A DNA stretch of 22,291 nt, taken from the IMG/VR virus record IMGVR_UViG_3300005253_000412, positions 1 to 22,291 of that record. One strand, 5' to 3'. This DNA comes from a virus. Shown here one piece after another: positions 1,325 through 20,139 of this stretch; positions within the stretch are counted from its first letter, which is position 1, and each line of letters opens with the position of its first letter. Made by a program: the position numbers and the translations under genes. The notes under the pieces are model-generated. The model searched no databases. It was given only the letters and a program-made list of their open reading frames with translations, and had not been told where the DNA came from.

Positions 1325-1537
1325 TCAATCCGTGAACCGCGTCAACCAGGCCGTGTTGGCCTCGTTGCGCTGCATCAGCTTGTTGAGGGCCGTGTCGTAC
1401 CACCACATGAGCGCGAACTTAACGGTGGGCTCCGCGGCCCCCGAGTTGTTCGTCGCGATTGCGTCCAGCTGGGCGTTGATGTCCGCCCGAAACGTGGCAC
1501 CATCGGCGTTCGCAACCACGTAATCAACCTGGCTCAT
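1325..1537 (-). CDS. Free-standing duplicate of the tail fibre N-terminal module
   Basis: This 70-residue protein is a paralogue of the first 64 residues of the tail fibre gene at 2515-3300: 54 of 64 positions match, from SQVDY through QRNEANTAW. After that it ends with LTRFTD and a stop, so it lacks the fibre shaft and receptor-binding end. The start is secure: ATG 1537 with GAGGAG eight bases upstream. The shared module likely attaches the fibre to the tail tip, because it is the N-terminal part that is kept. It could be an expressed small tail protein occupying the same attachment site, or the remnant of a second fibre gene. Its intact ribosome binding site and frame argue against simple decay. 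Confidence 0.75.
   Translation of the reverse strand: MSQVDYVVANADGATFRADINAQLDAIATNNSGAAEPTVKFALMWWYDTALNKLMQRNEANTAWLTRFTD
1346..1537 (-). repeat. Direct repeat copy A (fibre N-terminal module)
   Basis: This 192-base segment matches 3109-3300 closely without gaps in the coding frame (54 of 64 encoded residues identical, many silent matches). With its upstream 13-mer AGCTCCTCGTTGC (1544-1556, plus-strand reading) it preserves the layout that copy B had before the HNH insertion. Confidence 0.85.
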
Positions 1538-1563
1538 CGTGCTAGCTCCTCGTTGCCTTATAA

Positions 1564-2514: not shown

Positions 2515-3300
2515 TTAGTTCTTAATGGCGATGATACAATCGAGGAATCGCAGGTCGAGGTTGCTTAGGTTGTGGGTGTGACCGCTGCCGCTACCGGCAC
2601 TAGCGGTATTAAGTGCGGAGTTCTGTGATGTCGATCCGGTAGTCTGCTTTTCTGGCATCGTCGTCCCGCCACCGGTGGCGTTTACTACTTTTTCAAGATG
2701 GGCATGGGACGCGAGTTCCGCGGTTATCAGCGTATGGCTGGCGGTCGTCTTGCCGGTGCCAAAAACGGTGGAGAAGTTAACCGAGCCCCCACTCGTCACG
2801 GCGCCGGTCTGCAGCCGGATCGCCTTATTATTATGTACCGATTCCTTTGTCCAGCCGGTCGGGGCCGCCGTCTGCTGGAACAGCATCCGGGTACCGGCCG
2901 CGAAACCGGTCGGCGGTTTGTTTTCCAACTTCAAGGGGGTGATAAACCGGGTATCATTCGCACCGGCGTCCGTCTCGGCCTGGGTGGCGATCTCGGCGAC
3001 CCCCTCCGCGGCTTCGCTGGCCGAGCCCTTGGTCGCCGCCGTTCCTATAAGGGTGCCCTGACGATAGGGCGTCCAGGCCGTCGACGGGTCCTTACGCGCG
3101 GCCAGCACCCAAGCCGTGTTGGCCTCGTTGCGCTGCTTTAGATCGTTGGATGCCGTGTCGTACCACCACATATTTGCGAACTTAACGGTGGGCTCCGATC
3201 CCCCGGAGTTGTTCGTCGCGATCGCGTCCAGCATGGCGTTGATGTCCGCCCGAACCGTGGCGCCATCGGCGTTCGCGACGTTGTAATCAACTTGCGAGAT
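2515..3300 (-). CDS. Tail fibre / receptor-binding protein with displaced start
   Basis: This is the likely receptor-binding fibre. The C-terminal half carries the collar/tip signature found in many phage fibres: GTRMLFQQTAAPTGWTK, then KAIRLQTG, GGSVNFSTVFG, paired His-x-His motifs (SHAHL and GHTHN) that may coordinate metal, and the ending LDLRFLDCIIAIKN. The N-terminal 64 residues match the free module at 1325-1537. That match runs upstream of the first ATG (3234) to codon 3300, which is ATC where the paralogue has ATG. AGGAG at 3309-3313 sits eight bases before this ATC. A strict ATG-only call would be 2515-3234 and would remove 22 conserved residues. The gene is preceded by an HNH endonuclease on the other strand, whose insertion explains the lost start. 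Gene identity is firm; the start is uncertain. Confidence 0.85.
   Translation of the reverse strand: MSQVDYNVANADGATVRADINAMLDAIATNNSGGSEPTVKFANMWWYDTASNDLKQRNEANTAWVLAARKDPSTAWTPYRQGTLIGTAATKGSASEAAEGVAEIATQAETDAGANDTRFITPLKLENKPPTGFAAGTRMLFQQTAAPTGWTKESVHNNKAIRLQTGAVTSGGSVNFSTVFGTGKTTASHTLITAELASHAHLEKVVNATGGGTTMPEKQTTGSTSQNSALNTASAGSGSGHTHNLSNLDLRFLDCIIAIKN
3109..3300 (-). repeat. Direct repeat copy B (fibre N-terminal module)
   Basis: This is the partner of 1346-1537, forming the 5' part of the full-length fibre gene. The similarity stops at 3300, the exact edge of the HNH insertion. It resumes as the shared 13-mer at 4039-4051 on the far side of the endonuclease gene. Confidence 0.85.
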
Positions 3301-3313
3301 GACTCATACTCCT
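3298..3313 (-). promoter_or_regulatory. AGGAG ribosome binding site facing an ATC codon
   Basis: On the minus strand AGGAG (3309-3313) is followed by eight bases and then ATC (3298-3300), the codon homologous to the paralogue's ATG start. An ATG at 3305-3307 lies only one base after the AGGAG and in another frame, where it meets a stop after six codons. The site may drive initiation at a non-canonical AUC codon. Confidence 0.35.
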
Positions 3314-3318
3314 ATAGA

Positions 3319-4032
3319 ATGACAAACGTGGACATACCCGAACGCTTTCGTAGCAAGGTTGATTTCACCAATGCCTGTTGGCTCTGGCTTGGCGCGACAA
3401 CCCCGCAAGGGCATGGCGTTTATCGTGGTGACGATGGGCGAAACCTTCCCGCCCACCACTATACTTTCAGGCTAACAGGAGCCGTGATCCCGGCGAAGAT
3501 CAGGTTGCTCCATCGCTGCGGCAACCCATCCTGCGTGAAGCCGGGCCACCTTTTCCTAGGAACGCCAGAAAATATGTTACGGCGCAAACTTCGTCGGATG
3601 GCGAATGGCTGCATTGAATGGACTGGCAGCCTAATCACCAATGGCTATGGCTTGGTGGGCATCGGCGGACGAATAATATTAACTCACCGCCTTGCTTATG
3701 AACTCGCTCACGGCCCTATCCCGGACGGGCAATGGGTACTCCATCATTGCGACAGCCGTCGCTGCTGCAATCCAGATCATCTCTTTCTCGGCAATGCGCG
3801 CGTTAACAGAGACGATTGCGTGGCCAAGGGCCGGGAGGCCCGTGGAGAAATTCTAGCTTCGAGCAAACGCGGCGAGCGCAATCCTCGTTCCAAATTGAAG
3901 GCCGCCGATGTCGTGCAAATCCGTGTTCTCGCCAACGAAGGAACCTCGCAGCGCGTCATCGCCCGACGATATAGAATTGATCAAGCAACGGTTTCCATGA
4001 TCGTCAGGCGCCGCACATGGAAGCACATCTAA
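3319..4032 (+). CDS. HNH homing endonuclease with two tandem HNH domains
   Basis: This 237-residue plus-strand gene opposes its neighbours. ATG 3319 is used; a TTG at 3292 in frame would extend into the fibre gene. Two similar halves are visible. Residues 20-86 run from CWLWLGA to LLHRCGNPSCVKPGHLFLGT; residues 98-166 run from CIEWTGS to LHHCDSRRCCNPDHLFLGN. A C-terminal helix-turn-helix (about 192-235, SQRVIARRYRIDQATVSMIV) would supply DNA recognition. The second half keeps the HNH_3-type H, C, C, N and H residues. The first half keeps H65, C67, C72 and H77 but has Gly for the usual Asp and Lys74 for the Asn, so it is probably structural or weakened. Such proteins cut DNA at an empty site and spread by repair copying. 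It lies exactly at the 5' end of the tail fibre gene, and its 3' end overlaps the opposing gene by four bases. Confidence 0.9.
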   Translation: MTNVDIPERFRSKVDFTNACWLWLGATTPQGHGVYRGDDGRNLPAHHYTFRLTGAVIPAKIRLLHRCGNPSCVKPGHLFLGTPENMLRRKLRRMANGCIEWTGSLITNGYGLVGIGGRIILTHRLAYELAHGPIPDGQWVLHHCDSRRCCNPDHLFLGNARVNRDDCVAKGREARGEILASSKRGERNPRSKLKAADVVQIRVLANEGTSQRVIARRYRIDQATVSMIVRRRTWKHI

Positions 4033-4349
4033 CGCGTCAGCTCCTCGTTGCGCTTGGCCAGGGCCGCCTCATACCAGGTCACGTAGTCCTGGCACTCGGC
4101 CGGGAGCGACTTACCCTCCAGGAGGGCCCGCATCATCAAGAATACCGCGTAGTCCGAGGCCACCGGCGGTCGCGGCGGCTTACCGTAGCCGTGGCCCCGG
4201 GGGATAAAGGCCTTCCCGTCCCAGCGATAACTCCCATCAACGGGAAGATCACAACCCGTCGGCACCACCACGTGATCCGCGGCGGCTTTCTTCACCTGCT
4301 TGTACCCAACCAGGCGACCGTCCTTGTCAAGTTTAGCGATTTGAATCAC
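4029..4349 (-). CDS. Small tail-tip-associated protein, unknown function
   Basis: This 106-residue protein starts at GTG 4349 with GGAGG eight bases upstream, and its start overlaps the stop of the J-like tip gene (GTGA). It begins MIQIAKLDKDGRLVGYKQV, suggesting a short beta-rich domain, then a Gly/Pro-rich middle (PRGHGYGKPPRPP), then a helical C-terminus ending AALAKRNEELTR. The last codons contain the GAGGAG that would originally have served the tail fibre gene. Its TAG stop is immediately followed on the minus strand by ATG (4026-4028), now inside the endonuclease gene. The position between tip and fibre suggests a connector or fibre-assembly part. I do not recognise the family. Confidence 0.7.
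   Translation of the reverse strand: MIQIAKLDKDGRLVGYKQVKKAAADHVVVPTGCDLPVDGSYRWDGKAFIPRGHGYGKPPRPPVASDYAVFLMMRALLEGKSLPAECQDYVTWYEAALAKRNEELTR
4039..4051. repeat. 13-mer shared with the upstream region of the fibre paralogue
   Basis: AGCTCCTCGTTGC (plus-strand reading) occurs here and at 1544-1556. Read on the minus strand both copies contain GAGGAG. At 1544-1556 it is the ribosome binding site of the 70-residue paralogue. Here it is separated from its fibre gene by the HNH gene, so it marks the ancestral leader. Confidence 0.6.
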
Positions 4350-7300
4350 GGTACGTCCTCCACGGTTACGGATAGCTCATCGATCTTCATATTGTAAGCC
4401 GGATCTCGGCTCGTAAAGATCACCTTAAAATCAAATCCCCGCGCCTCAAATTCCGCGCTATCCAAGATGTTCCAAGCCGACCACGTCGGTGAGCCCGCCG
4501 GATCATCATCGGTATGCCGCACCCAGACCCGGGCGTCCGTCTCGGCCTGAACGGTTCCATCCCAGTCCTCCCAGTCATCGACGTTCCCCGCCCGATCATC
4601 AAAGTTATCTAAGACGGGAGCGCTAAACGCCTTGATATGCGAGGTCAGGCGGACCCTCTTGACCGTGGTCAGATCGATATTTTGACCAAAATCATAGGTA
4701 CCGGTCGTTCCGATCCCCCCGTAAGAATCCAGCCAACCCGTCATCAGGTCGATATCGGGAATATCATCGACCAACCCCACCGCGAGAAGCTGCAAAAAAC
4801 CGTCGGTTGCGACCGTTCCGGTGTGTGTTCCGGCGAAGAGAGGGTCCTCGGTCACCGAATCTACGTTCGCAAAGGTCAGCACCGAGGCCTGCTTGGTATC
4901 AATCTTCGCGATCGTGGTCGAGGGCCGGGCGCCCCGGTCAAAGACCCGCCCGAGATAGGTGCCCGGTTTTAATGGTAGCTGAATGCTTAGATCCGCCCCC
5001 GGCGCGGCGGTTCCGATAGACGTCGAGTTTTGCCACTCGGCCGAGGCCGCATCGGCCTCCGGGGAGTGCCTAAACCTGACCTCACCCCCGAAGCGCACGT
5101 CCAGCTCCGGCAACGGGTCCCATCTCAAGATTACCGAACCACCGAACGCCGAGATGTTCAGGTTCTGCAGGCCCCCGGGCGGGGTCGTCTGGCCCACGAC
5201 GCTGTAACCGGGCCGCTCCACCCAAGCCCCGGGTCGCAGCGCACTGGGGGGACTATTCCAACGTACCCTCAGGTCATAGGTGGCCCCCTCCGCGATATTT
5301 CCCAAGAGGATCTCGCCATCCGTCCGGTTCAACCAGGTCGCGGGTACGTAGGGCTCACCGGTACCGGTCGCCCGAATCTGCACCTCCAGAACCAGGTCAA
5401 CCTGATTGATTGGATCAACCCTAATCGCGATCCGAGGCAGCAACGTCAAGCCCGAGCCCAACTCTAACACGCTTTCATCTGACCGGATCTCGAGTATCAC
5501 CACGGTCGGGATCGTGGGAAGCGGCGTCAGCTTGGTAACATAAGCCGGGATCTCGCCCGTGTCCGCCTGATATACGCCAGGTGAATGCGGGACCACGGTT
5601 AACCGGGCCGCCAGGTCCGTTTGAGGTTCAACGCTCAGTACCAAACCCTCGATCGTCTCTAGGCCAAGTTCGCCAAATCCAAATAGATCTCCCACCACCG
5701 GTGCGTCCGCGTCCGCGATTACGTCCGTAAAGACCACCGTGGTCTGGTCACCCGGGTTGGTCACGACCTGCCGGGTTAGCTCGGCGTCATTGATGGTTCG
5801 GATAGAAACCCCATAGGTCTTAGGCGCGCTCATCGACAGCGTCTCGTCAACCGTCATCCCGGTTACGTTCGGCGGGCTGGCCGCGTCCGTTTGCAACGCC
5901 TTAATTCGACCTGAGGCCAGGCCCACCAACAGCACGTCATGGGTGATCATCACCAGGCTTCCCCGGCGCGCCACCAGGTGCTCTATATCAACGTTAAGGG
6001 TCCACTGTTCCGGCCGCAGCCGCAACTGGGCTATGTTGAATCGCCCGAACTTCCAGACGTGATCCGGGTCCGTTATCCCGAAGGCATTCAGCTGCTCGAA
6101 CCTGGTCGCGTTCGCCTCGGTAAAACCATCATCGTAGACCCGGCGCTCATCCTGGCGCCAGTCCTCCTCACGGTTGGTAAACCTAACCCGGAACCCGTGC
6201 GGCAGGTCGACGAACATTTTCTCGGCCTCAAACCCCCATGAGTTTCGGGGGGTAAAGTGCTGCACCGGAACCGTCTGTTCTTCATCAACCGTAACCGACC
6301 ACTTCCCGTCCACCTGGGTCGGTGAGGCCCGTCCCGCCACGGCCACATCGGCCAGGGTTGACCACGCGGAGGCTTGAAAGTCGCGCACCATATTAAACTC
6401 AAAATTATTCGCCACATTAAAGTCGTGCCAATCTTCTAGCGCAGCCAGGTCTATCCGCGCGTTCGCCAGCGGCTCGGTCAGGGCCTTGCTCTGTAATACG
6501 TGCCGATATAACGAAGCCGGATTCGAGCTCACCGCCTCCGCCCAACTAGCCCCGTTCCAGTCCAGCACGTAGGAGCTCAGCTCGGCCGTCAACTCGTCAA
6601 CCGATCGGTTAAGTTGATCGGTGGCCTTGATCACCAGGGCCGTAGCCGCCAGGGGATGAGGAAAGTTTAACGGATCTTCATCGGTGATTACGCGCAGCGC
6701 CGACCAAAAAGTTAGATCGAAGATACTTGAATCGGTATTATCCGTGGTGGTTCGTCGCAGCCTTATCTCATACGCGGCCCGGGTAGCCACGGACCACCTG
6801 AACCCGTGGCGAACCGCGGAGGTCCGGTTATGAGTAAACGTAATCGTGTACCCGGACACCCAAGAACTCGATACGGTTTTCGCCGTAAAGGTCGGGGTTA
6901 ACCAGGGCGTGTCCCCCACCTTACGATACTGCATCTCAACCACGACCGTTTGATTTCGACGCTTACCCCGATCGTCAAAGTTCACCAGACCCCGCGGAAA
7001 GGTGATATCCACGCTCAGCTCATCCGCGTTTCCCGCGCTCGTTCGCTGCTGCCAAGACCCCGCCGAGGTTAAGGCAACCGATAGATCCTGTTGGTTGACG
7101 CTATCCGGGAACAAGGTAAAAGCCGGATCTCCGACGCGCCCCTCGTTGGTCTCAATCTGCACGCCATCGAAGTCCGCGATCGGGGTCTCACCTATCTTGA
7201 TGTTCTCGATCTTAAGCGGACCATAACCCCAGATCACCAGCATCCGTAAAAACTGGTTGTCACCCACGACCTCCGTGAAGCTCTGGGCGCCGAGCGGTGG

Positions 7301-7927
7301 CACGAAACGATGTTTCCCCAGCACCACCGGTACGATCCCGAATGGTCGCGGCAGGTTCCGAGCCGCCTCGATAAAGAGGGTCGGGCTATCCCTAACCGAG
7401 CCCCCCGCCGAAAGCTGTCCGGTTGATGACGAGGTCGCCGGCGCGATCAGGTTAACCAGCATCCGGCCCGCGATACTGACGATCGCCGAACCGATTACAC
7501 CGGATAGCGTCGAGGCCAACCCAAAGGACATACCGAGGGGAAGCCCACCGATCAGGGGTAGGTTAGCGAAGATCCCCGCACCCAACATCGGACCCAGGAC
7601 GAAGCCCGCGGCGAACACGGCTATCATCATGATGGTCCGCAGCGGGTTCTTGCCACCTCCACCGCCGGCCGGTACCACGCGGATCGTTATCACCACCCCC
7701 GCCTTAGGACGAACCTGCGGCCAGAACTCACGCGGGACCATGTCATCACCGATGAACACGTACGCGTAGGCCATGAGCACCGGATCGGGCTGGACTATTT
7801 CCAGGATCTCCGTGATCGTGCGACCCTCCGGCACCCACAGATCCACGATCTCGGTCTTGAACGGATGCGGTGCCGCGACGACCCGCACCTTACCGGTCGG
7901 ATCTAGCGCCAGGGCGGTCTCGGTCAC
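4346..7927 (-). CDS. Tail tip host-specificity protein, TipJ / lambda J-like
   Basis: At 1193 residues this is the central hub of the tail tip, which binds fibres and contacts the host. GTG 7927 overlaps the NlpC/P60 stop (GTGA) and has GAGGAG eight bases upstream. Order of parts: an N-terminal small beta domain (1-90); a Gly-rich linker (PAGGGGGKNP) and a long hydrophobic stretch (about 98-165), typical of this family and perhaps membrane-active; a hub domain with the phrase ARNLPRPFGIVPVVLGKHR (about 190-210); a middle region with FPRGLVNFDDRG and VVVEMQYRK that resembles phage-tail_3; a fibronectin type III-like domain (about 914-1013); and a C-terminal beta-sandwich-like domain (about 1085-1193) with NFDDRAGNVDDWEDWDG. 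It is intact. Host range is probably shared with the fibre encoded just downstream. Confidence 0.93.
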   Translation of the reverse strand: MTETALALDPTGKVRVVAAPHPFKTEIVDLWVPEGRTITEILEIVQPDPVLMAYAYVFIGDDMVPREFWPQVRPKAGVVITIRVVPAGGGGGKNPLRTIMMIAVFAAGFVLGPMLGAGIFANLPLIGGLPLGMSFGLASTLSGVIGSAIVSIAGRMLVNLIAPATSSSTGQLSAGGSVRDSPTLFIEAARNLPRPFGIVPVVLGKHRFVPPLGAQSFTEVVGDNQFLRMLVIWGYGPLKIENIKIGETPIADFDGVQIETNEGRVGDPAFTLFPDSVNQQDLSVALTSAGSWQQRTSAGNADELSVDITFPRGLVNFDDRGKRRNQTVVVEMQYRKVGDTPWLTPTFTAKTVSSSWVSGYTITFTHNRTSAVRHGFRWSVATRAAYEIRLRRTTTDNTDSSIFDLTFWSALRVITDEDPLNFPHPLAATALVIKATDQLNRSVDELTAELSSYVLDWNGASWAEAVSSNPASLYRHVLQSKALTEPLANARIDLAALEDWHDFNVANNFEFNMVRDFQASAWSTLADVAVAGRASPTQVDGKWSVTVDEEQTVPVQHFTPRNSWGFEAEKMFVDLPHGFRVRFTNREEDWRQDERRVYDDGFTEANATRFEQLNAFGITDPDHVWKFGRFNIAQLRLRPEQWTLNVDIEHLVARRGSLVMITHDVLLVGLASGRIKALQTDAASPPNVTGMTVDETLSMSAPKTYGVSIRTINDAELTRQVVTNPGDQTTVVFTDVIADADAPVVGDLFGFGELGLETIEGLVLSVEPQTDLAARLTVVPHSPGVYQADTGEIPAYVTKLTPLPTIPTVVILEIRSDESVLELGSGLTLLPRIAIRVDPINQVDLVLEVQIRATGTGEPYVPATWLNRTDGEILLGNIAEGATYDLRVRWNSPPSALRPGAWVERPGYSVVGQTTPPGGLQNLNISAFGGSVILRWDPLPELDVRFGGEVRFRHSPEADAASAEWQNSTSIGTAAPGADLSIQLPLKPGTYLGRVFDRGARPSTTIAKIDTKQASVLTFANVDSVTEDPLFAGTHTGTVATDGFLQLLAVGLVDDIPDIDLMTGWLDSYGGIGTTGTYDFGQNIDLTTVKRVRLTSHIKAFSAPVLDNFDDRAGNVDDWEDWDGTVQAETDARVWVRHTDDDPAGSPTWSAWNILDSAEFEARGFDFKVIFTSRDPAYNMKIDELSVTVEDVP

Positions 7928-9208: not shown

Positions 9209-11121
9209 CAACGACCAACCAGGCTCGGGGTCATACCGGCAAAGGCACCCTGGATCGCCCGGAACGTGCGGGTACCCGGGACGATACTTTTAGCCATCTG
9301 CTCATCTAAAAGGATGTCAAGTCGCCGCGCGCCCTGTATGGCGCTCTCACGGGTCTGTACCTCGGTGCCCGGGGGCGCGAACACGTTCACCTCGACCTCA
9401 CTTCGAACCATCACGGGCGAGGTGGATACCTGGGCCCCCGGGGTACCCACGGTTACGGTCTCACCCGGTGTGGCCTTAAAGGCCACCATCTGAGAATCGG
9501 CCCCGCCGGAGCCGCCCACCGTAAACTGCCCCCCGTGGCGAAAGCCCATGAAACCACTAAAAAGATCACGAAGGAAACCGGTAAAAGGCCGCGTAATCGT
9601 CTCTTGAAATGCGATCCGAGCAATATCCTCAAGTAAAGAGTTCAATACATTGCTCAGCTTTTCACCCCTCAGAATCGCGTCCTCAAACGCCGAGCTAAAA
9701 GCGACACCCAGCTCATCGGCCGCTCGCGTTCCCTCCTTCGTGGCCTCCTCATCTTTCTTTTTCTGCGCGGTCAGTTCCTCAACCCGCTCCGCCAGCACCT
9801 TAACCTGCCGCGCCTCCTTGACCAACTGGGCGATCTCCTCTTCGGTCAGGACTAGGCCAAGTTTTTGGGCTACCTCGTACGCCTTACGAAGGGCCGTTAG
9901 GCGCTTCCACTCGGCCCTACTCGTGCCCAGTTGATCAAGCTGACGACTGGTCGTGTCGATCTCGACCTGTATCGCTTTCTGTACCTGCTTGATCAGGGCC
10001 ACCCGCGCCTTCTCCGCGTCCAGTCCTTTACGGACCTCCGCCTCAAGGCGCTCGGCCAGGCTCAACTGCTCCGTTTGGGCGACGTTCAGGCCCTTCGTTT
10101 CATCGGTGGTTTCACGCAGCCGTAGGGTCAGGACGGTTAGTAACCCGGCTAGGGGTCCCAAGATGAGGGCCAGCTGCACCCCCTTCTTACCACCGAGTTT
10201 CAGGGCCGTCGACGCCACCAAGATCGCCGCAGCTACCGCCAGGATCTCGGGGTGAAACTTCACGAAGAACTCGGTCGCATCAAGAACCAGCGTACTCAGG
10301 TTCTTCAAGCCGCTTATGAAATCCGGGCTGGTCATCATCCGGGCCAGGTCGCGCATCGCCGGCATAAGCTGCAGGGCCGCCGCGATACCGGCGATGCGTA
10401 GCGCGTCCGCCATATCACCCAGCTCATCGGCCGCCACCTCGGACCGGGCGATTATCTCGTTACTCAGGACCGCCCCCAGCGTCCGGGCCTTCCGGGCCAT
10501 CCGGTCAAGACCGGCGGACCCCTCGTTAAGCGTCGTTACGAACAGGGCCCCCGATCGCCCGAACGCGGCCCGGGCTATCGCCGTTTTTTCAAGAGCTGAA
10601 TCCGTGTCCTGGATCGCATCCGCCAGGAGCCGAAGGGCCTCCTCCTGGTTTTTCGTGTTCTTCAGCATCTCAACGAGGCCGGGATTGAACTCCTGCAGGG
10701 CCAGCCCCATCTCGGATGAGGTTCGGGTCCGCAGCTCCGCCATGTTCTTGATAAAGAACAGCAGGGCCTTATCGGTTTTCTCGATCTCGATTCCCCCGCG
10801 ACGAGCGGCAAAACGAAACTCCTGCAGCGCCTCGGCGGAGAGGCTGGTTGCCCTGGCGACCTTTGCGATCGTATCCGCCGCATCGATGGAGCGCTTAACC
10901 AAAAAGAAAAGCCCCCCGATACCCGCCGCGGCCACCGCCGCCGAGCGCAAACTAATCAAGGATTTAGCGAACCTCACCGCGCTCGTTCGGGCACGAGCGA
11001 AGGCACGACGCATACGAGCGGACCCACGGCGCACGGCCTTGACGGCCCGTCCCATGTCCTGCTCGAACCTCGCTATCGCGAGACCCAGCTCAGCTCTTAG
11101 ACTGCCTATTGGCTCGGCCAA
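9208..11121 (-). CDS. Tail tape measure protein
   Basis: This 637-residue protein sets tail length and is probably ejected ahead of DNA. TTG 11121 is the start, with GGAGGG about eight bases upstream. The N-terminus (EPIGSLRAELGLAIARFEQDM) and basic helical region are typical. Hydrophobic stretches occur near residues 57-75 and 300-340, and a Lys/Glu-rich coiled-coil zone lies near 355-480. The C-terminal region has the recurrent tape measure phrase FRHGGQFTVGGSGGADSQMV followed by TPGETVTV. Using the usual 1.5 angstrom per residue, it predicts a tail of roughly 95 nm. It is intact and follows the tail chaperone, as expected, except that a lipoprotein gene on the other strand lies between them. 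Confidence 0.93.
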   Translation of the reverse strand: MAEPIGSLRAELGLAIARFEQDMGRAVKAVRRGSARMRRAFARARTSAVRFAKSLISLRSAAVAAAGIGGLFFLVKRSIDAADTIAKVARATSLSAEALQEFRFAARRGGIEIEKTDKALLFFIKNMAELRTRTSSEMGLALQEFNPGLVEMLKNTKNQEEALRLLADAIQDTDSALEKTAIARAAFGRSGALFVTTLNEGSAGLDRMARKARTLGAVLSNEIIARSEVAADELGDMADALRIAGIAAALQLMPAMRDLARMMTSPDFISGLKNLSTLVLDATEFFVKFHPEILAVAAAILVASTALKLGGKKGVQLALILGPLAGLLTVLTLRLRETTDETKGLNVAQTEQLSLAERLEAEVRKGLDAEKARVALIKQVQKAIQVEIDTTSRQLDQLGTSRAEWKRLTALRKAYEVAQKLGLVLTEEEIAQLVKEARQVKVLAERVEELTAQKKKDEEATKEGTRAADELGVAFSSAFEDAILRGEKLSNVLNSLLEDIARIAFQETITRPFTGFLRDLFSGFMGFRHGGQFTVGGSGGADSQMVAFKATPGETVTVGTPGAQVSTSPVMVRSEVEVNVFAPPGTEVQTRESAIQGARRLDILLDEQMAKSIVPGTRTFRAIQGAFAGMTPSLVGR

Positions 11122-14790: not shown

Positions 14791-17460
14791 TTAGGTTTTA
14801 ACCTTAAAACCGGCTCGCCCCGATATCTTCACAAGCAACCGACCCCCCGGCCCTACCACAAGTGACCGCCCTCCCGGGCCCACCGCGAAATCTCGCTGAT
14901 CAGGGGTCAAAATGAAGGTGGCCGCGATAATCGGAAGCAACCCCGTCACGGTAAGAGCATCCAACGGTACTATCACCGCGGCTCCGGTCGCCATGGCCGG
15001 GATTAAATCAGCCACGCTCACCGCATCCACGGGCGGCAGTACCAGGGCGCCCGTACCCACGACCGGCACCAGATTATTGAGGTTGATACCGTCTACGGGC
15101 GGCAGTACCCGGACACCCGTTCCCACGGCCGGCACCAGATTATTGAGGTTGGTGCCATCTACGGGAGGCCGTACCCGGACACCCGTACCGACCACCGGGA
15201 CAAATCCCGTTTCCGTGATCGCGTCAAGCGGCACGATCAACAAAACACCAGTCCCGACCGCGGGCAGAAGATCGCCCACGCTCAGGGCATCAAGCGGCAC
15301 CGCCACGCTCTTACCCGACGCGATCGCCGGCACGAGGTTGACAAGACTGAGCCCGTCTACGGGCGGCAGCACCCGGACGCCCGTGCCCACGGCCGGCACA
15401 AGATTATTGAGGTTGATGCCGTTTACCGGCGGCTTGATGTTCTTACCCGACGCCACGACCGGCACGAAATCCGTGTGTGAAATCACGTTTAGCGGAACAA
15501 CGATGATGATCCCACCGGCGGTAATCACGGGTACAAAATCGATCACACCCACCGCATCAACGGGCGGCAGCACGGCGACCCCGGTCATAATCTCAGGCAC
15601 CAGGTTGGCCAAGGAGATAGCGTCCAGGGGCACGATAACGAGGACGCTGGTCCCCACCGCCGGCACCTGATCGGCAACTGAAATCGAGTCCACGGATGGT
15701 GCGACCGACGCCCCCGCCGCCACGGCGGGCGCCTGATCGGCGATGCTCACCGCGTCCGCGGGCGGCAGCACCAGGGCGGAGGTGCCGACTTGGGGAACCA
15801 GATTGCTCAAGCTCAGCGCATCGACCGGCGGCAAAAGGAGCACATCAGTCAGAACCTGCGGCACCAGATCGGCGATGGAAATAGGATCGGACGGCGCGGC
15901 GACGGCAACGCTGGTGCCGACACGAGGCACCGGATCGGTGATGCCGATGGCATCCGCTGGCGGCAGCACCAGCACCGATGAGCCGACAGCCGGCACGAGA
16001 TCGGCCAGGGTGATCGCACCGGCCGGCGGCTTAACGTTCTTGCCCGACGCCACCGCTGGCACCTGATCGGCGATCGACACCGCGTCTGCCGGCGCGACAC
16101 CGCCGCCGCCGGAAGCCACCGCCGGGACTTGTCCGGCCTCGGTGATACCATCGAGCGGCACGCTAACCAGCGCGCTGGTGCCCACCTGGGGCGCCTGATT
16201 GGCGACACTCACGGCGTTCACTGGCACGGCAATGTTCTTGCCGGAGGCGACGACGGGAACCTGATTGGCCACGCTCAGGGTGGCGAGCGGCACGGCGATA
16301 GTAACGCCGGCGCCGCCAAGACTTATCTCGTTGTACTTGACCGTGCCGCCGTCATCGACGATGAGGCCGATCTTAATGCCGGAACGGTCATAACGATTCG
16401 GCGATATGTGGTTAAACGTCCCGACCCATTCGAGCGTATCGACTCCCCATCCGGCGTCGTCGTCGTTGGTGTCGCGGAAGAGGTCGTCTGAAACTTGGTC
16501 ACCGTATAATAATTGAAGATTTTTGATGTCAACGGCCAGCGCGATCACTGTGCCGAGATTAATTCCATCAATCGCGTTGGCGGTTATTCCTGCATCTACA
16601 GATAACGTAGGTGTGTCGCTGCTATCCAATTTTGCGACTGACCCGAGGGTGATATCTCTATACGGACATCTGACTCGTTGTGTTCCAGCATCGTCATAAG
16701 ATGCTCCGGCACCAAAAGCATATTGGAAACCTGTGCCGCCGATTACTGCGTCAAAAGAACTTGGGAATGTTTCCAGACTGTCATCGGCCCGAATCGTCCG
16801 TTGATACCCATCAGAATTAGTTAAATCCTTGAAAAACACGTGCATCCGGTCGGACGACCCCGGCACGATGACGCAGCCGGTCCAGTCGATCTCCCCGCCG
16901 TTGTCGATGCTGACCGGCCCGGCCCAGGCGGCGCCGTTGGAAGCGGCGGTGGACTTGTTCCAGTCGATGCGCTCATACTCCGTCCCCGCCACCATGTCGC
17001 TGTCGCCCTGGTAGGTGGTGATGATGTCCCCGGCGGTGGAGCGGACGCCTATGGTGACTGCACGGGCGGTTTGGGTTCCACCTGTGGTGTCAACGAGGAT
17101 GTCTCTGTCGCCGATATCGACTTCGACCCAAGTGTCCGAGGACATATCGAAACGAGCATAGTAGACATCATTGGAGGCAGATTGACCCACAAGATGCAGG
17201 CTGTCTCCATCTTGAAACACCCACCAACTTAATGCGTTAAAACTCGATATATTAGCGAGGATAGGTCTGTTCGTGATGTCCTGTTCTGTAAAACTGCTTG
17301 TCGGGTCGGTTGCCTTATAACACCTTGCGCTAGAATTGGCAGCTCCTCCTGGCAAAATAGTATAAAAATTACCACCAGAACTTTTAAAAGGACCGTGATA
17401 TGAATTCTGTTCGCCAACATCAGGATTGTTCGTGCTATCAATCGTAACCGGCAGCGCCAT
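14791..17460 (-). CDS. Large virion protein with propeller-like head and 21 tandem repeats
   Basis: This 889-residue protein starts at ATG 17460, one base overlapping the upstream stop (TGATG), with AGGTG upstream; GTG 17463 is also in frame. Residues about 1-385 are beta-rich, with Trp/Tyr/Asp strands such as SLHLVGQSASNDVYYARFD and MHVFFKDLTNSDGYQRTIR, suggesting a sialidase-like propeller or lectin-like domain; no catalytic motif is certain. Residues 390-852 are 21 tandem units of 22 residues (one of 23) with consensus near PPVDAISLADLVPAVGTGVLVL. The last 37 residues carry a small repeated VGPGGR motif. The gene lies between virion-surface-like genes and the head-tail connectors, next to a fibre-adaptor candidate. 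A neck, head or side fibre with a repetitive shaft is most likely. The exact role is unknown. Confidence 0.85.
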   Translation of the reverse strand: MALPVTIDSTNNPDVGEQNSYHGPFKSSGGNFYTILPGGAANSSARCYKATDPTSSFTEQDITNRPILANISSFNALSWWVFQDGDSLHLVGQSASNDVYYARFDMSSDTWVEVDIGDRDILVDTTGGTQTARAVTIGVRSTAGDIITTYQGDSDMVAGTEYERIDWNKSTAASNGAAWAGPVSIDNGGEIDWTGCVIVPGSSDRMHVFFKDLTNSDGYQRTIRADDSLETFPSSFDAVIGGTGFQYAFGAGASYDDAGTQRVRCPYRDITLGSVAKLDSSDTPTLSVDAGITANAIDGINLGTVIALAVDIKNLQLLYGDQVSDDLFRDTNDDDAGWGVDTLEWVGTFNHISPNRYDRSGIKIGLIVDDGGTVKYNEISLGGAGVTIAVPLATLSVANQVPVVASGKNIAVPVNAVSVANQAPQVGTSALVSVPLDGITEAGQVPAVASGGGGVAPADAVSIADQVPAVASGKNVKPPAGAITLADLVPAVGSSVLVLPPADAIGITDPVPRVGTSVAVAAPSDPISIADLVPQVLTDVLLLPPVDALSLSNLVPQVGTSALVLPPADAVSIADQAPAVAAGASVAPSVDSISVADQVPAVGTSVLVIVPLDAISLANLVPEIMTGVAVLPPVDAVGVIDFVPVITAGGIIIVVPLNVISHTDFVPVVASGKNIKPPVNGINLNNLVPAVGTGVRVLPPVDGLSLVNLVPAIASGKSVAVPLDALSVGDLLPAVGTGVLLIVPLDAITETGFVPVVGTGVRVRPPVDGTNLNNLVPAVGTGVRVLPPVDGINLNNLVPVVGTGALVLPPVDAVSVADLIPAMATGAAVIVPLDALTVTGLLPIIAATFILTPDQRDFAVGPGGRSLVVGPGGRLLVKISGRAGFKVKT
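14905..16293 (-). repeat. 21-unit tandem repeat, 66-base period, inside virion gene
   Basis: The array encodes 21 units of 22 residues (unit 12 has 23), each with Pro at position 2, a small polar turn, and VP near the middle followed by xVxTG or xVASG. Most units have diverged, but some stretches are nearly identical. AGATTATTGAGGTTG, for example, recurs near 15070, 15139 and 15401 (plus-strand reading). This points to recent duplication or gene conversion within the array. Confidence 0.92.
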
Positions 17461-18251
17461 CACACACCTATGAAGGTATCGTTAGGCAACAGCGTCGGCC
17501 ACGAGTTTGTGGTGTACCAAGCCTGATCCGTCAGTCGATCCACTACCGGCTCCGTCCCGACGATCCGCTTCCAATTCAGGAACGGGGCCGGTTCGGGCTT
17601 CGCCGCCGCAGCATCCTTATAGAATTGGACGTAATGGACGATCTGGGAAGCGACGTTGATCTGGCGCAGGGCATCGGAGAGGTTCACTGCCTCATCATCG
17701 TGCAGCCACGGCAGGACGCTACTGGTGACGATATGGGTAAAGGTGCCCTTGTTCCGTATGCGCTGGCGCGAGCCCCTGGAGAGTCCATCTTCCTCAAGGA
17801 TGGTTTCGGTGGCTCGTGGGCCGGCGACTAGCTTGCCGAGGAAAGACTGACGCAGGGCGTGACCGCTGGTGACACCCGCCAAATCCAGCGCCGCCTCGAT
17901 CTCGCCCGCCTCGCCCGTCCCCTTGACGGCATGAATCCAGGACGAGGAATCCATGCACGTCACCGGGATGCCCAAGCCTATCAGCGCCTCGGCCTCCCAG
18001 CCGAAGGCCGCGCCGACGAGTAGGACGTTATGGGATGGGGTTAGGCTGAGTTCCTGGACGAGCCGCCTTGCTCGACCGATGGGAACATTGATTAGCTCAT
18101 AGGCCCGACGATGGTGATGGAGATAGACCTTCGGCGCCTGGAACCACTCCGCCCGCTCAACAGCGGGAAGCCCGTCGATCAGCCGCCGAGTGACGAAGAT
18201 GCGGTCCTGGCGGTGGTAATGATCGGCAAGTGAGCCATCAAGGATGGGCAT
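17460..18251 (-). CDS. Class I SAM methyltransferase-like protein
   Basis: This 263-residue protein has a Rossmann-type methyltransferase signature: motif I HNVLLVGAAFGWEAEAL (about 75-90), motif II VTCMDSS with acidic Asp101, and THIVTSSVLPWLHDDEAVNL (about 172-190), equivalent to the FDVV..evleH segment. It begins MPILDGSLADHYHRQD at ATG 18251. The substrate cannot be read from sequence. It lies immediately before the repeat virion gene and downstream of an HNH insertion, among structural genes rather than DNA replication genes. Modification of a virion protein or glycan is therefore one possibility. The Gly in motif I is partly replaced (GAAFG), so activity is not assured. Confidence 0.7.
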   Translation of the reverse strand: MPILDGSLADHYHRQDRIFVTRRLIDGLPAVERAEWFQAPKVYLHHHRRAYELINVPIGRARRLVQELSLTPSHNVLLVGAAFGWEAEALIGLGIPVTCMDSSSWIHAVKGTGEAGEIEAALDLAGVTSGHALRQSFLGKLVAGPRATETILEEDGLSRGSRQRIRNKGTFTHIVTSSVLPWLHDDEAVNLSDALRQINVASQIVHYVQFYKDAAAAKPEPAPFLNWKRIVGTEPVVDRLTDQAWYTTNSWPTLLPNDTFIGV

Positions 18252-18345
18252 ACGGCACCATCATCAGCTCACGGTGAAGATACCGCTCGCTCGACTGAGC
18301 CGAGACGGCGCGGGCCAGAGCCAACCTTTGTGATTGGCCCGCCAT
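18238..18345 (-). CDS. Possible 35-residue ORF or gene remnant under the HNH 3' end
   Basis: A frame from ATG 18345 to a stop at 18238 encodes MAGQSQRLALARAVSAQSSE followed by RYLHRELMMVPYAHP. It overlaps the HNH gene's C-terminal tail in another frame and the start of the methyltransferase-like gene by 14 bases, as true operon neighbours here do. The end looks more protein-like than a typical shadow frame. It may be a tiny gene, or the surviving 3' end of a gene displaced by the HNH insertion. No convincing ribosome binding site precedes it. Confidence 0.25.
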   Translation of the reverse strand: MAGQSQRLALARAVSAQSSERYLHRELMMVPYAHP

Positions 18346-18901
18346 TGCCCCGGCGCCTGCGAGCGCGGACAATCCGTGAAATGTTGCCCTGTTTGACGCC
18401 GAACTTCTCCGCCAACTCGCGCTGGTAATATTCGCCGGTCGCGTAGAGGCGCCTGATTTCCTCTGCCTGTTCATCGGTCAGTGTTGAAAACGGGTGTGCC
18501 TCACCGTTCAGTACGCGCCCGTGACGCACAGCATCGGCCATGTTGTCCTGCGGTGTCCCCCAGTACAGATTGGACGGATGATTGTTCGACCGATCACCGT
18601 CACGGTGGCAGGCATACATCCCAGCCTTCGGCGCCGGCCCGTGGAAGGCCTCACAGATCAGCCGGTGCAAGAGCAAATACTGCCACTTGCCGTTCGCGCC
18701 CGGGAGAGGAACCGTGTAGTAACCATCCGGGCGCAGAGTCGGCTTCATGGGCTTTGCTAACGTGACATCGGGGCGGTCAATAATCTCGCCCTCAGACAGG
18801 ACAACCACGTCCCTTGCGGCATAGGCACTCAGCACCGCGCCCTGGGCGTTCAGCAAGTAGCCCGGGGCACCCGGGATTTCACGAAATTGGGCGTCTGACA
18901 T
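18269..18901 (-). CDS. HNH homing endonuclease with NUMOD4-like N-terminus
   Basis: This 210-residue protein starts at ATG 18901 with AAGGAG eight bases upstream. Residues 6-27 (FREIPGAPGYLLNAQGAVLS) match the NUMOD4-type DNA-binding module. The HNH core lies near 79-116: HRLICEAFHGPAPKAGM, then ACHRDGDRSNNHPSNLYWGT, with the catalytic His in ACHRDG and the Asn of NHPSNL. A helix-turn-helix follows (about 135-180, QRELAEKFGVKQGNISRIV). It runs in the operon direction between a virion-surface-like gene and a methyltransferase-like gene. After the HTH a Gly/Arg/Ser-rich 25-residue tail has no family match and probably reads into older phage sequence. Confidence 0.93.
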   Translation of the reverse strand: MSDAQFREIPGAPGYLLNAQGAVLSAYAARDVVVLSEGEIIDRPDVTLAKPMKPTLRPDGYYTVPLPGANGKWQYLLLHRLICEAFHGPAPKAGMYACHRDGDRSNNHPSNLYWGTPQDNMADAVRHGRVLNGEAHPFSTLTDEQAEEIRRLYATGEYYQRELAEKFGVKQGNISRIVRARRRRGNGGPITKVGSGPRRLGSVERAVSSP

Positions 18902-18940: not shown

Positions 18941-19393
18941 TTATGAAACAGTAAAAATACCCGATCCGTTCCACGTGATTTTAAAATCGGTGCCGTCGCC
19001 CGCCGTCTCTGAGCCACCGAAGTCGATCGAGTAGGCCAGGGCGTCCACCGGCGTCGATGAGGTATCATCGAACAGCACGCAGTCATCCGCCGGGCCGATG
19101 GAGCCGCCCGAGGCGGTCCAGGTGGTATCGACGGCGTCGAAGGTGACGGTGCCCGAGGATTCGACCCAGGTCGGGGTGCCCAGCTCCTTACCGGTCAGGC
19201 CGCCGACCGCTTGCACGTAGCCGTTGCCGGCGGCGATCTGGTTGGCCGAGACGTCCGTGCGGATGGTGTGCGTCGCCGTGAAGACGTGCGTCGCGTTCAT
19301 CAGCATGTGGAAAAACTGATCATTGTCGAGATCGACGCTGTTGTCGCCGAAGTATTCGACCCATTTATTGTATCGGTTAATAGTGACGGCCAC
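18941..19393 (-). CDS. Virion surface / decoration-like structural protein
   Basis: This 150-residue protein starts at GTG 19393 (MAVTINRYNKWVEYFGDNSVD) with AGGAG about eight bases upstream, inside the end of the HNH gene. It has the recurring phage structural pattern ATHVFTATHTIRTDVSANQI, then GTVTFDAVDTTWTASGGSIG and the ending DFKITWNGSGIFTVS. This is typical of a family of about 150-residue beta-rich virion proteins encoded near capsid or tail genes. It is complete. A role as head decoration or similar surface protein is likely but rests on recalled family context, not on a demonstrated homologue. Confidence 0.75.
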   Translation of the reverse strand: MAVTINRYNKWVEYFGDNSVDLDNDQFFHMLMNATHVFTATHTIRTDVSANQIAAGNGYVQAVGGLTGKELGTPTWVESSGTVTFDAVDTTWTASGGSIGPADDCVLFDDTSSTPVDALAYSIDFGGSETAGDGTDFKITWNGSGIFTVS

Positions 19394-19880
19394 AGTACTT
19401 CTCCTTTACTTTAGTTAATGTTCGCTTCCATTGTGCGCCACGTTTAATATTGGAAATCTGCGCCTGGCTTACTCTATATTCGCGCGCGATTACTGTTTGC
19501 GAACGATGGTCGTGAACGATGGCAAGGACATCCGCTTCAATCAGCTTCGAGGCCCCGTGTTTTTCGCCGAAGGTACTGCGGTCACGCGCCACCTTTTCGG
19601 CGTTGTTGCTAACATTGGTGCCGAGATGAAGGTGGTCGGGGTTAACGCAATACGGATTGTCGCAAGAATGATTAACTTGTAGGCCATCGGGAATTGGGCC
19701 ACGATACAACTCCCAAGCGACCCGGTGCGCCCGCTCACGCTTCTTGCCGCGTGTGCCAAGAGCTATCTGTCCATACCCATCGGCATCTACACAAGCGGTC
19801 CATAGCCAACATCCCGACATCGGCTCAGGCATGAACTTTTGCTCGAACCGCTCTTGAAGCGGCCGAGCAACAAAAGCCAC
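19377..19880 (-). CDS. HNH homing endonuclease (HNH_3 type with HTH)
   Basis: This 167-residue endonuclease is inserted between two small virion-region genes. The start is placed at GTG 19880, five bases after the upstream stop. The much longer open frame reaching 20411 is not used because it runs antisense-in-frame through two other genes with a low-complexity Arg/Pro sequence. ATG at codon 17 is another possibility. Visible parts: CWLWTACVDADGYGQI (24-39), the HNH core VNHSCDNPYCVNPDHLHLGT (69-88) with H71, C73, C78, N80 and H83 intact, and a C-terminal helix-turn-helix (about 112-150, VIAREYRVSQAQISNIKRG). Its last 17 bases overlap the start of the next gene and include that gene's ribosome binding site. 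Confidence 0.9.
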   Translation of the reverse strand: MAFVARPLQERFEQKFMPEPMSGCWLWTACVDADGYGQIALGTRGKKRERAHRVAWELYRGPIPDGLQVNHSCDNPYCVNPDHLHLGTNVSNNAEKVARDRSTFGEKHGASKLIEADVLAIVHDHRSQTVIAREYRVSQAQISNIKRGAQWKRTLTKVKEKYCGRHY

Positions 19881-19884
19881 GCCC

Positions 19885-20139
19885 TTAGCCCTCTGGCGCG
19901 TGTTCGGTGATCTTGAACGTACCCTTGGGCACGTCGATGTTGACGCCGACGGGGTTGCCCGTGGGCGCCGTCTCCTGGCCGTACTTCTGAAAGTTCGCCA
20001 GGCTGACGTCGTATGCCGCCATCTTGCGCTTCCAGGTAGCCACGCGCGGGTGCTTCGGATAGGCCTTGAGAGAGGCCGCGGCCTTGGCACGGGCGTCGAG
20101 AAGCCGCTGAATGCGGCCTTCCATGCGATTATGATCCAT
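19885..20139 (-). CDS. Small hypothetical virion-region protein
   Basis: This 84-residue protein starts at ATG 20139 with GAGGAAA eight bases upstream, overlapping the upstream zinc-ribbon gene by 11 bases. The N-terminal half is basic and helical (RIQRLLDARAKAAASLKAYP). The C-terminal half contains GNPVGVNIDVPKGTFKITEH, which looks like beta structure. It is followed by an HNH endonuclease gene. I do not recognise the family. Gene order between modification genes and a surface-like protein suggests a small structural or assembly protein. Confidence 0.7.
   Translation of the reverse strand: MDHNRMEGRIQRLLDARAKAAASLKAYPKHPRVATWKRKMAAYDVSLANFQKYGQETAPTGNPVGVNIDVPKGTFKITEHAPEG

Follow-up and report, generated by a model that had tools for sequence, protein, structure and literature searches.

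The tail-fibre gene of an uncultured tailed phage has very probably lost its start codon to an HNH gene inserted antisense at its upstream border, so that an AUC codon behind a good Shine-Dalgarno sequence is what is left. The best overall explanation, which we favour tentatively, is that this insertion was followed by weak initiation of the fibre at AUC. The window, by which is meant the whole stretch of DNA analysed, is the 22,291-base IMG/VR virus record IMGVR_UViG_3300005253_000412, which holds tail and neighbouring genes lying mostly on the minus strand; along this strand a J-like tail protein is followed by a 106-aa gene, an opposite-strand HNH gene and the tail-fibre gene (Table 1). The fibre gene has matches to phrog_29834, phrog_24121 and tail phrogs, no match to the 106-aa gene was found in the phage collection, and the other genes in the window appear intact. 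A further ORF of 890 aa, at 14791-17463 on the minus strand, is rich in repeats, each ~25-30 residues long and of the type VPAVGTGVRVLPPVDGINLNNL.

Table 1. Features of the fibre locus and its surroundings in the window
Feature	Position	Strand	Remarks
Paralogue of the fibre N-terminal module	1325-1537	-	70-aa copy with ATG start; 86% DNA identity
Tail-fibre gene	2515-3300	-	N-terminal SQVDY module (~70 aa) and C-terminal part; 261 codons from ATC
Next in-frame ATG, residue 23	3232-3234	-	Not conserved; inside predicted helix 14-28
ATC where homologues carry ATG	3298-3300	-	From sequence and homologue alignment
In-frame TGA closing the fibre frame upstream	3304-3306	-	Only GTC and ATC left before TCG
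Out-of-frame ATG	3305-3307	-	ATG AGT CAT CTC GCA AGT TGA (6 codons); 1 nt after AGGAG
AGGAG, Shine-Dalgarno-like	3309-3313	-	8 nt before ATC; within the HNH leader; anti-Shine-Dalgarno duplex -6.8 kcal/mol
HNH_3 homing-endonuclease-like gene	3319-4032	+	Antisense to its neighbours; putative C-terminal helix-turn-helix; ends AAG CAC ATC TAA (Lys-His-Ile-stop)
TAG-ATG	4026-4031	-	Antisense of the HNH His-Ile-stop codons (CAC ATC TAA); supplies the present stop of the 106-aa gene
106-aa gene	4029-4349	-	Immediately upstream of the fibre in HNH-free relatives; C-terminus NEELTR-stop
Central tail fibre J-like protein	4346-7927	-	1193 aa; phrog_31, E 3e-118; used as synteny anchor

Read on the minus strand, the fibre frame starts with TGA GTC ATC TCG CAA GTT GAT TAC, with TCGCAAGTTGATTAC following the ATC, and ahead of the conserved SQVDY the window sequence offers no ATG, GTG or TTG in this frame. 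It had been predicted that the codon before TCG is ATC with an AGGAG eight bases upstream, and both are found exactly so. The ATC is the sole codon at the conserved fibre N-terminus with a well-placed Shine-Dalgarno sequence, a 5-mer of this kind at a spacing of 5-10 being expected by chance at about 1.0-2.2% of positions. Apart from its start the frame is intact, and its 261 codons include no premature stop. The RNA fold at the junction (z -0.42) gave no support to a regulatory hairpin, and no terminator-like sites were found in 3000-4400. A programmed +1 frameshift from the out-of-frame ATG was considered and rejected, as no slippery site could be seen by eye and this ATG stands just 1 nt past the AGGAG. 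A promoter-like match (9/12; TTGCGA, 17 nt, TAGAAT) lies at 3292-3320 on the plus strand, where it spans the HNH/fibre junction and is directed into the HNH gene; the first of its hexamers lies in fibre sequence, and two such matches occur in the region where 0.7 would be expected.

Homologues were gathered from viral contigs with a profile of the 70-aa fibre N-terminal module, giving 51 distinct sequences. Methionine occupies the start column in 39 of these and isoleucine in the window only, so nearly all homologues carry ATG at this codon and the AUC is not conserved; in the Roseobacter phages CRP-6 and CRP-406 the annotated genes begin at this same residue. Among the sequences without methionine L058 has its start one residue further on, several others match only distantly and in part, and L010, L053 and L055 run upstream into signal-peptide-like leaders. 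L010 was for a time a candidate for a second disrupted start and was rejected because its leader is in frame. The signal-peptide- or lipoprotein-like leaders that stand before the SQHDY module in these three contigs (L010:3027-4019, L053 near 9285-9686 and L055 near 9298-10131; for example MKKILFLFLAFSLIGCVNPALA-SQHDY) are odd for a phage fibre.

The arrangement before the insertion can be read from HNH-free contigs, which were located through J and yielded 15 loci where the counterpart of the 106-aa gene occurs together with the fibre. In 13 of the 15 the small-gene stop and the fibre ATG are separated by -4 to +3 nt, and in the remaining two by 15 and 74 nt, so that the intact junction that the original prediction proposed to look for is indeed present in relatives; the two genes abut there, and the HNH gene is absent from the same site. 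The J profile had no match in the genome-contig collection. One J homologue (L008:7947-12398) is 1483 aa long, with an insertion of ~300 aa relative to the 1193 aa of J in the window.

The paralogue gives a second view of the empty site, from within the same window. The 13-mer GCAACGAGGAGCT, said to occur at both loci, is found at 4039-4051 and again upstream of the paralogue at 1544-1556 (minus strand), and by eye it falls within a paralogue leader reading AAC GAG GAG CTA GCA CGA TGA, that is NEELAR-stop, which may be compared with the end of the 106-aa gene. The paralogue thus does represent the uninterrupted layout, its ATG being intact and its leader keeping the last codons of the small gene, and because it holds these codons it is best read as a copy of the uninterrupted junction from the same lineage (fibre against paralogue, dN 0.147 and dS 0.33). 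Together with the HNH-free relatives it supports the proposal that the HNH gene cut the fibre off from the ribosome binding site and start that lay upstream of it.

These alignments also bear on whether the fibre might begin instead at the ATG of residue 23, at 3234, and so lack 22 residues, as had been suggested. A weak Shine-Dalgarno sequence of the type GGCGGA lies ~10 nt upstream of this ATG, and the methionine is not shared by the paralogue, which has glutamine there, but such a start would discard the near-invariant Q3, D5, N10, R17, D19 and N21 and cut the predicted helix at 14-28 (a structure of modest confidence, with mean pLDDT 74 and low values at the first residues), residue 23 is not a conserved methionine, and no known homologue begins there. 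We therefore regard an internal start as improbable.

The HNH gene itself exceeds the curated Pfam cut-off for HNH_3 (PF13392) with E 1.8e-18 and 66.3 bits against 24.8, and its C-terminus resembles HTH_38 at 23 bits, below the cut-off of 27, and the phrog_517 HTH DNA-binding protein at E 3.9e-8. Two more HNH_3 genes lie in the window at 18269-18901 and 19377-19970, both on the minus strand and thus on the strand of their neighbours, which makes three HNH genes per 22 kb.

Its last codons turn out to account for a piece of evidence that had been put forward for the insertion. The TAG-ATG had been taken for the stranded start of the fibre, and rejoining the flanks on either side of the HNH gene was said to give a perfect fibre start; the letters are those of the HNH gene's own C-terminus, and this ending is common. 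In a set of 66 distinct HNH relatives drawn from viral contigs, W-x-H-[ILVM] falls in the final eight residues of 32 and forms the exact terminus of 10, and the same antisense stop-ATG occurs in other contexts in L139, which ends AAGCACATCTAG, and L133, which ends ACTCACATCTAA. The TAG-ATG therefore need not be the old fibre start, and since the supposed ATG falls in the coding sequence of the HNH gene on the opposite strand the rejoined flanks are not independent evidence; what speaks for the empty site is the paralogue and the HNH-free relatives. From the paralogue it is suggested that the old ATG would have lain within a few bases of this point, which is not to claim that it survives there, and the old junction may conceivably have shared letters with the end of the HNH gene.

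The same codons weigh against a self-splicing intron with an endonuclease on the opposite strand, in which the start codon would be restored in the RNA. The junction looks precise enough for this, and phage structural genes with intron-borne HNH genes are known (PMC3706429; PMC10448857), but the ATG of the supposed 5' exon is HNH coding sequence, the HNH ORF occupies nearly the whole insert with ~20 nt to spare, and a search of Rfam gave nothing with E up to 1 on either strand of 2900-4500. It would seem highly improbable that an intron is involved.

How the HNH relatives treat their neighbours is a separate matter. By a crude longest-neighbour rule 10 of 55 HNH-relative loci are nested antisense between two sense genes, and in the three read closely (the viral contigs L170, L124 and L185) the gene that follows the HNH leader retains its ATG, which counts against the AUC reading and makes the lost ATG in the window an apparent exception among such loci. 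In L185 the HNH gene (antisense, at about 2928-3417) lies directly upstream of a tail-fibre gene (1964-2860) whose ATG is kept, with GGGGAGG upstream of it.

These loci lend something to the idea that here too the insertion left a working Shine-Dalgarno sequence and ATG, the ATC being a later point change or an error in the contig consensus whilst the population uses ATG. ATC is one base from ATG, and the leader TATAGGAGTATGAGTC resembles the natural fibre leader of L024, AATAGGAGTGTAAGAC, at 12 of 16 bases and at the same distance from the start (P 0.02-0.06), a weak match that was picked as the best of 40. Against it, a search of viral contigs with a junction DNA pattern in which the third base of the start codon was left free found no match and hence no near relative, and single-base errors are rare in assembled consensus sequences, which counts against the contig-error version. 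An altered ATG is, we consider, unlikely.

It is somewhat doubtful, too, that the fibre is crippled, that is, that the destroyed start yields little or no full-length protein and the phage makes do with its J-type central fibre and its remaining tail proteins, or that the contig derives from a defective prophage. No canonical start is left, initiation at AUC is inefficient, and by inspection the C-terminal parts of the fibre are highly variable among relatives, so that its loss may be tolerated; set against this are the long open frame, the intact look of the other genes in the window, and the AGGAG, which would not be expected to be so well placed in a dead gene.

Under the explanation that we prefer, weak initiation at AUC, a free-standing HNH homing-endonuclease-like gene would have been inserted antisense at the junction of the 106-aa gene and the fibre and would have removed the fibre ATG, a step that is well supported by the relatives and the paralogue. 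The reverse complement of the HNH leader would now stand before the second codon of the fibre and provide the AGGAG, which could have arrived with the insert. The fibre would then most likely be translated from AUC with fMet at low efficiency, from a message that is probably a late operon transcript running through the antisense HNH gene. A more speculative statement of this is that a mobile HNH gene swapped the translation start of a structural gene for its own antisense leader, and that a virion protein may in consequence be made from AUC at a reduced level.

Such starts do occur in bacteria. The infC gene of Streptomyces, which encodes IF3, begins at ATC (PMC5472188), and AUC is listed among natural bacterial starts, with codons that lack a 3' G being discriminated against by IF3 (PMC4611024), so that a structural gene read from AUC would be poorly made; expression of a B. 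subtilis lacZ fusion persisted at a much lower level when its start was mutated to AUC (PMC10303841). With their AUU/AUC and GTC starts respectively, infC and sigR (PMC5472188) are likewise natural bacterial genes with non-canonical start codons, although these are regulatory genes that have been studied experimentally, whereas the fibre is on one contig and known from sequence alone.

There are also parallels for the insertion. In T4-like phages, too, free-standing homing endonucleases of the HNH/mob and seg kinds lie between phage genes and can disturb the expression of a neighbour, and T4 itself has segD in antisense orientation between the essential genes 23 and 24 (PMC2988022); the window differs in that the neighbour's ATG is missing and AUC alone remains, and in that mobility and cleavage by its HNH gene are putative. 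The HNH_3 genes of L170, L185 and L124 are similarly tightly nested between sense genes, one of them directly upstream of a tail-fibre gene, yet those neighbours keep a canonical ATG that the fibre in the window is without. The insertion of the HNH gene mobE in nrdA of phage Aeh1 (PMC2988022) likewise disrupts a host gene, there inside the coding sequence and here at the start codon. HNH insertions beside structural genes and AUC starts are thus known separately, and their combination on a phage fibre is unusual but unproven. Searches of viral contigs with protein patterns for the fibre or the small gene found no direct relatives, and in the collections that were searched no related phage has both this insertion and AUC, or either of them singly; with a single contig and neither feature in any relative, maintenance of the arrangement is not indicated.

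Whichever of these readings holds, antisense HNH insertions at start codons should be checked against empty sites and not against rejoined flanks, which may belong to the mobile gene's own coding sequence. Should the fibre be made from AUC, a selfish gene has retuned tail-fibre expression, and gene callers run automatically would cut the protein short at residue 23, dropping the conserved N-terminal module. If the fibre is not made, this would be a clear case of a homing gene harming its phage.
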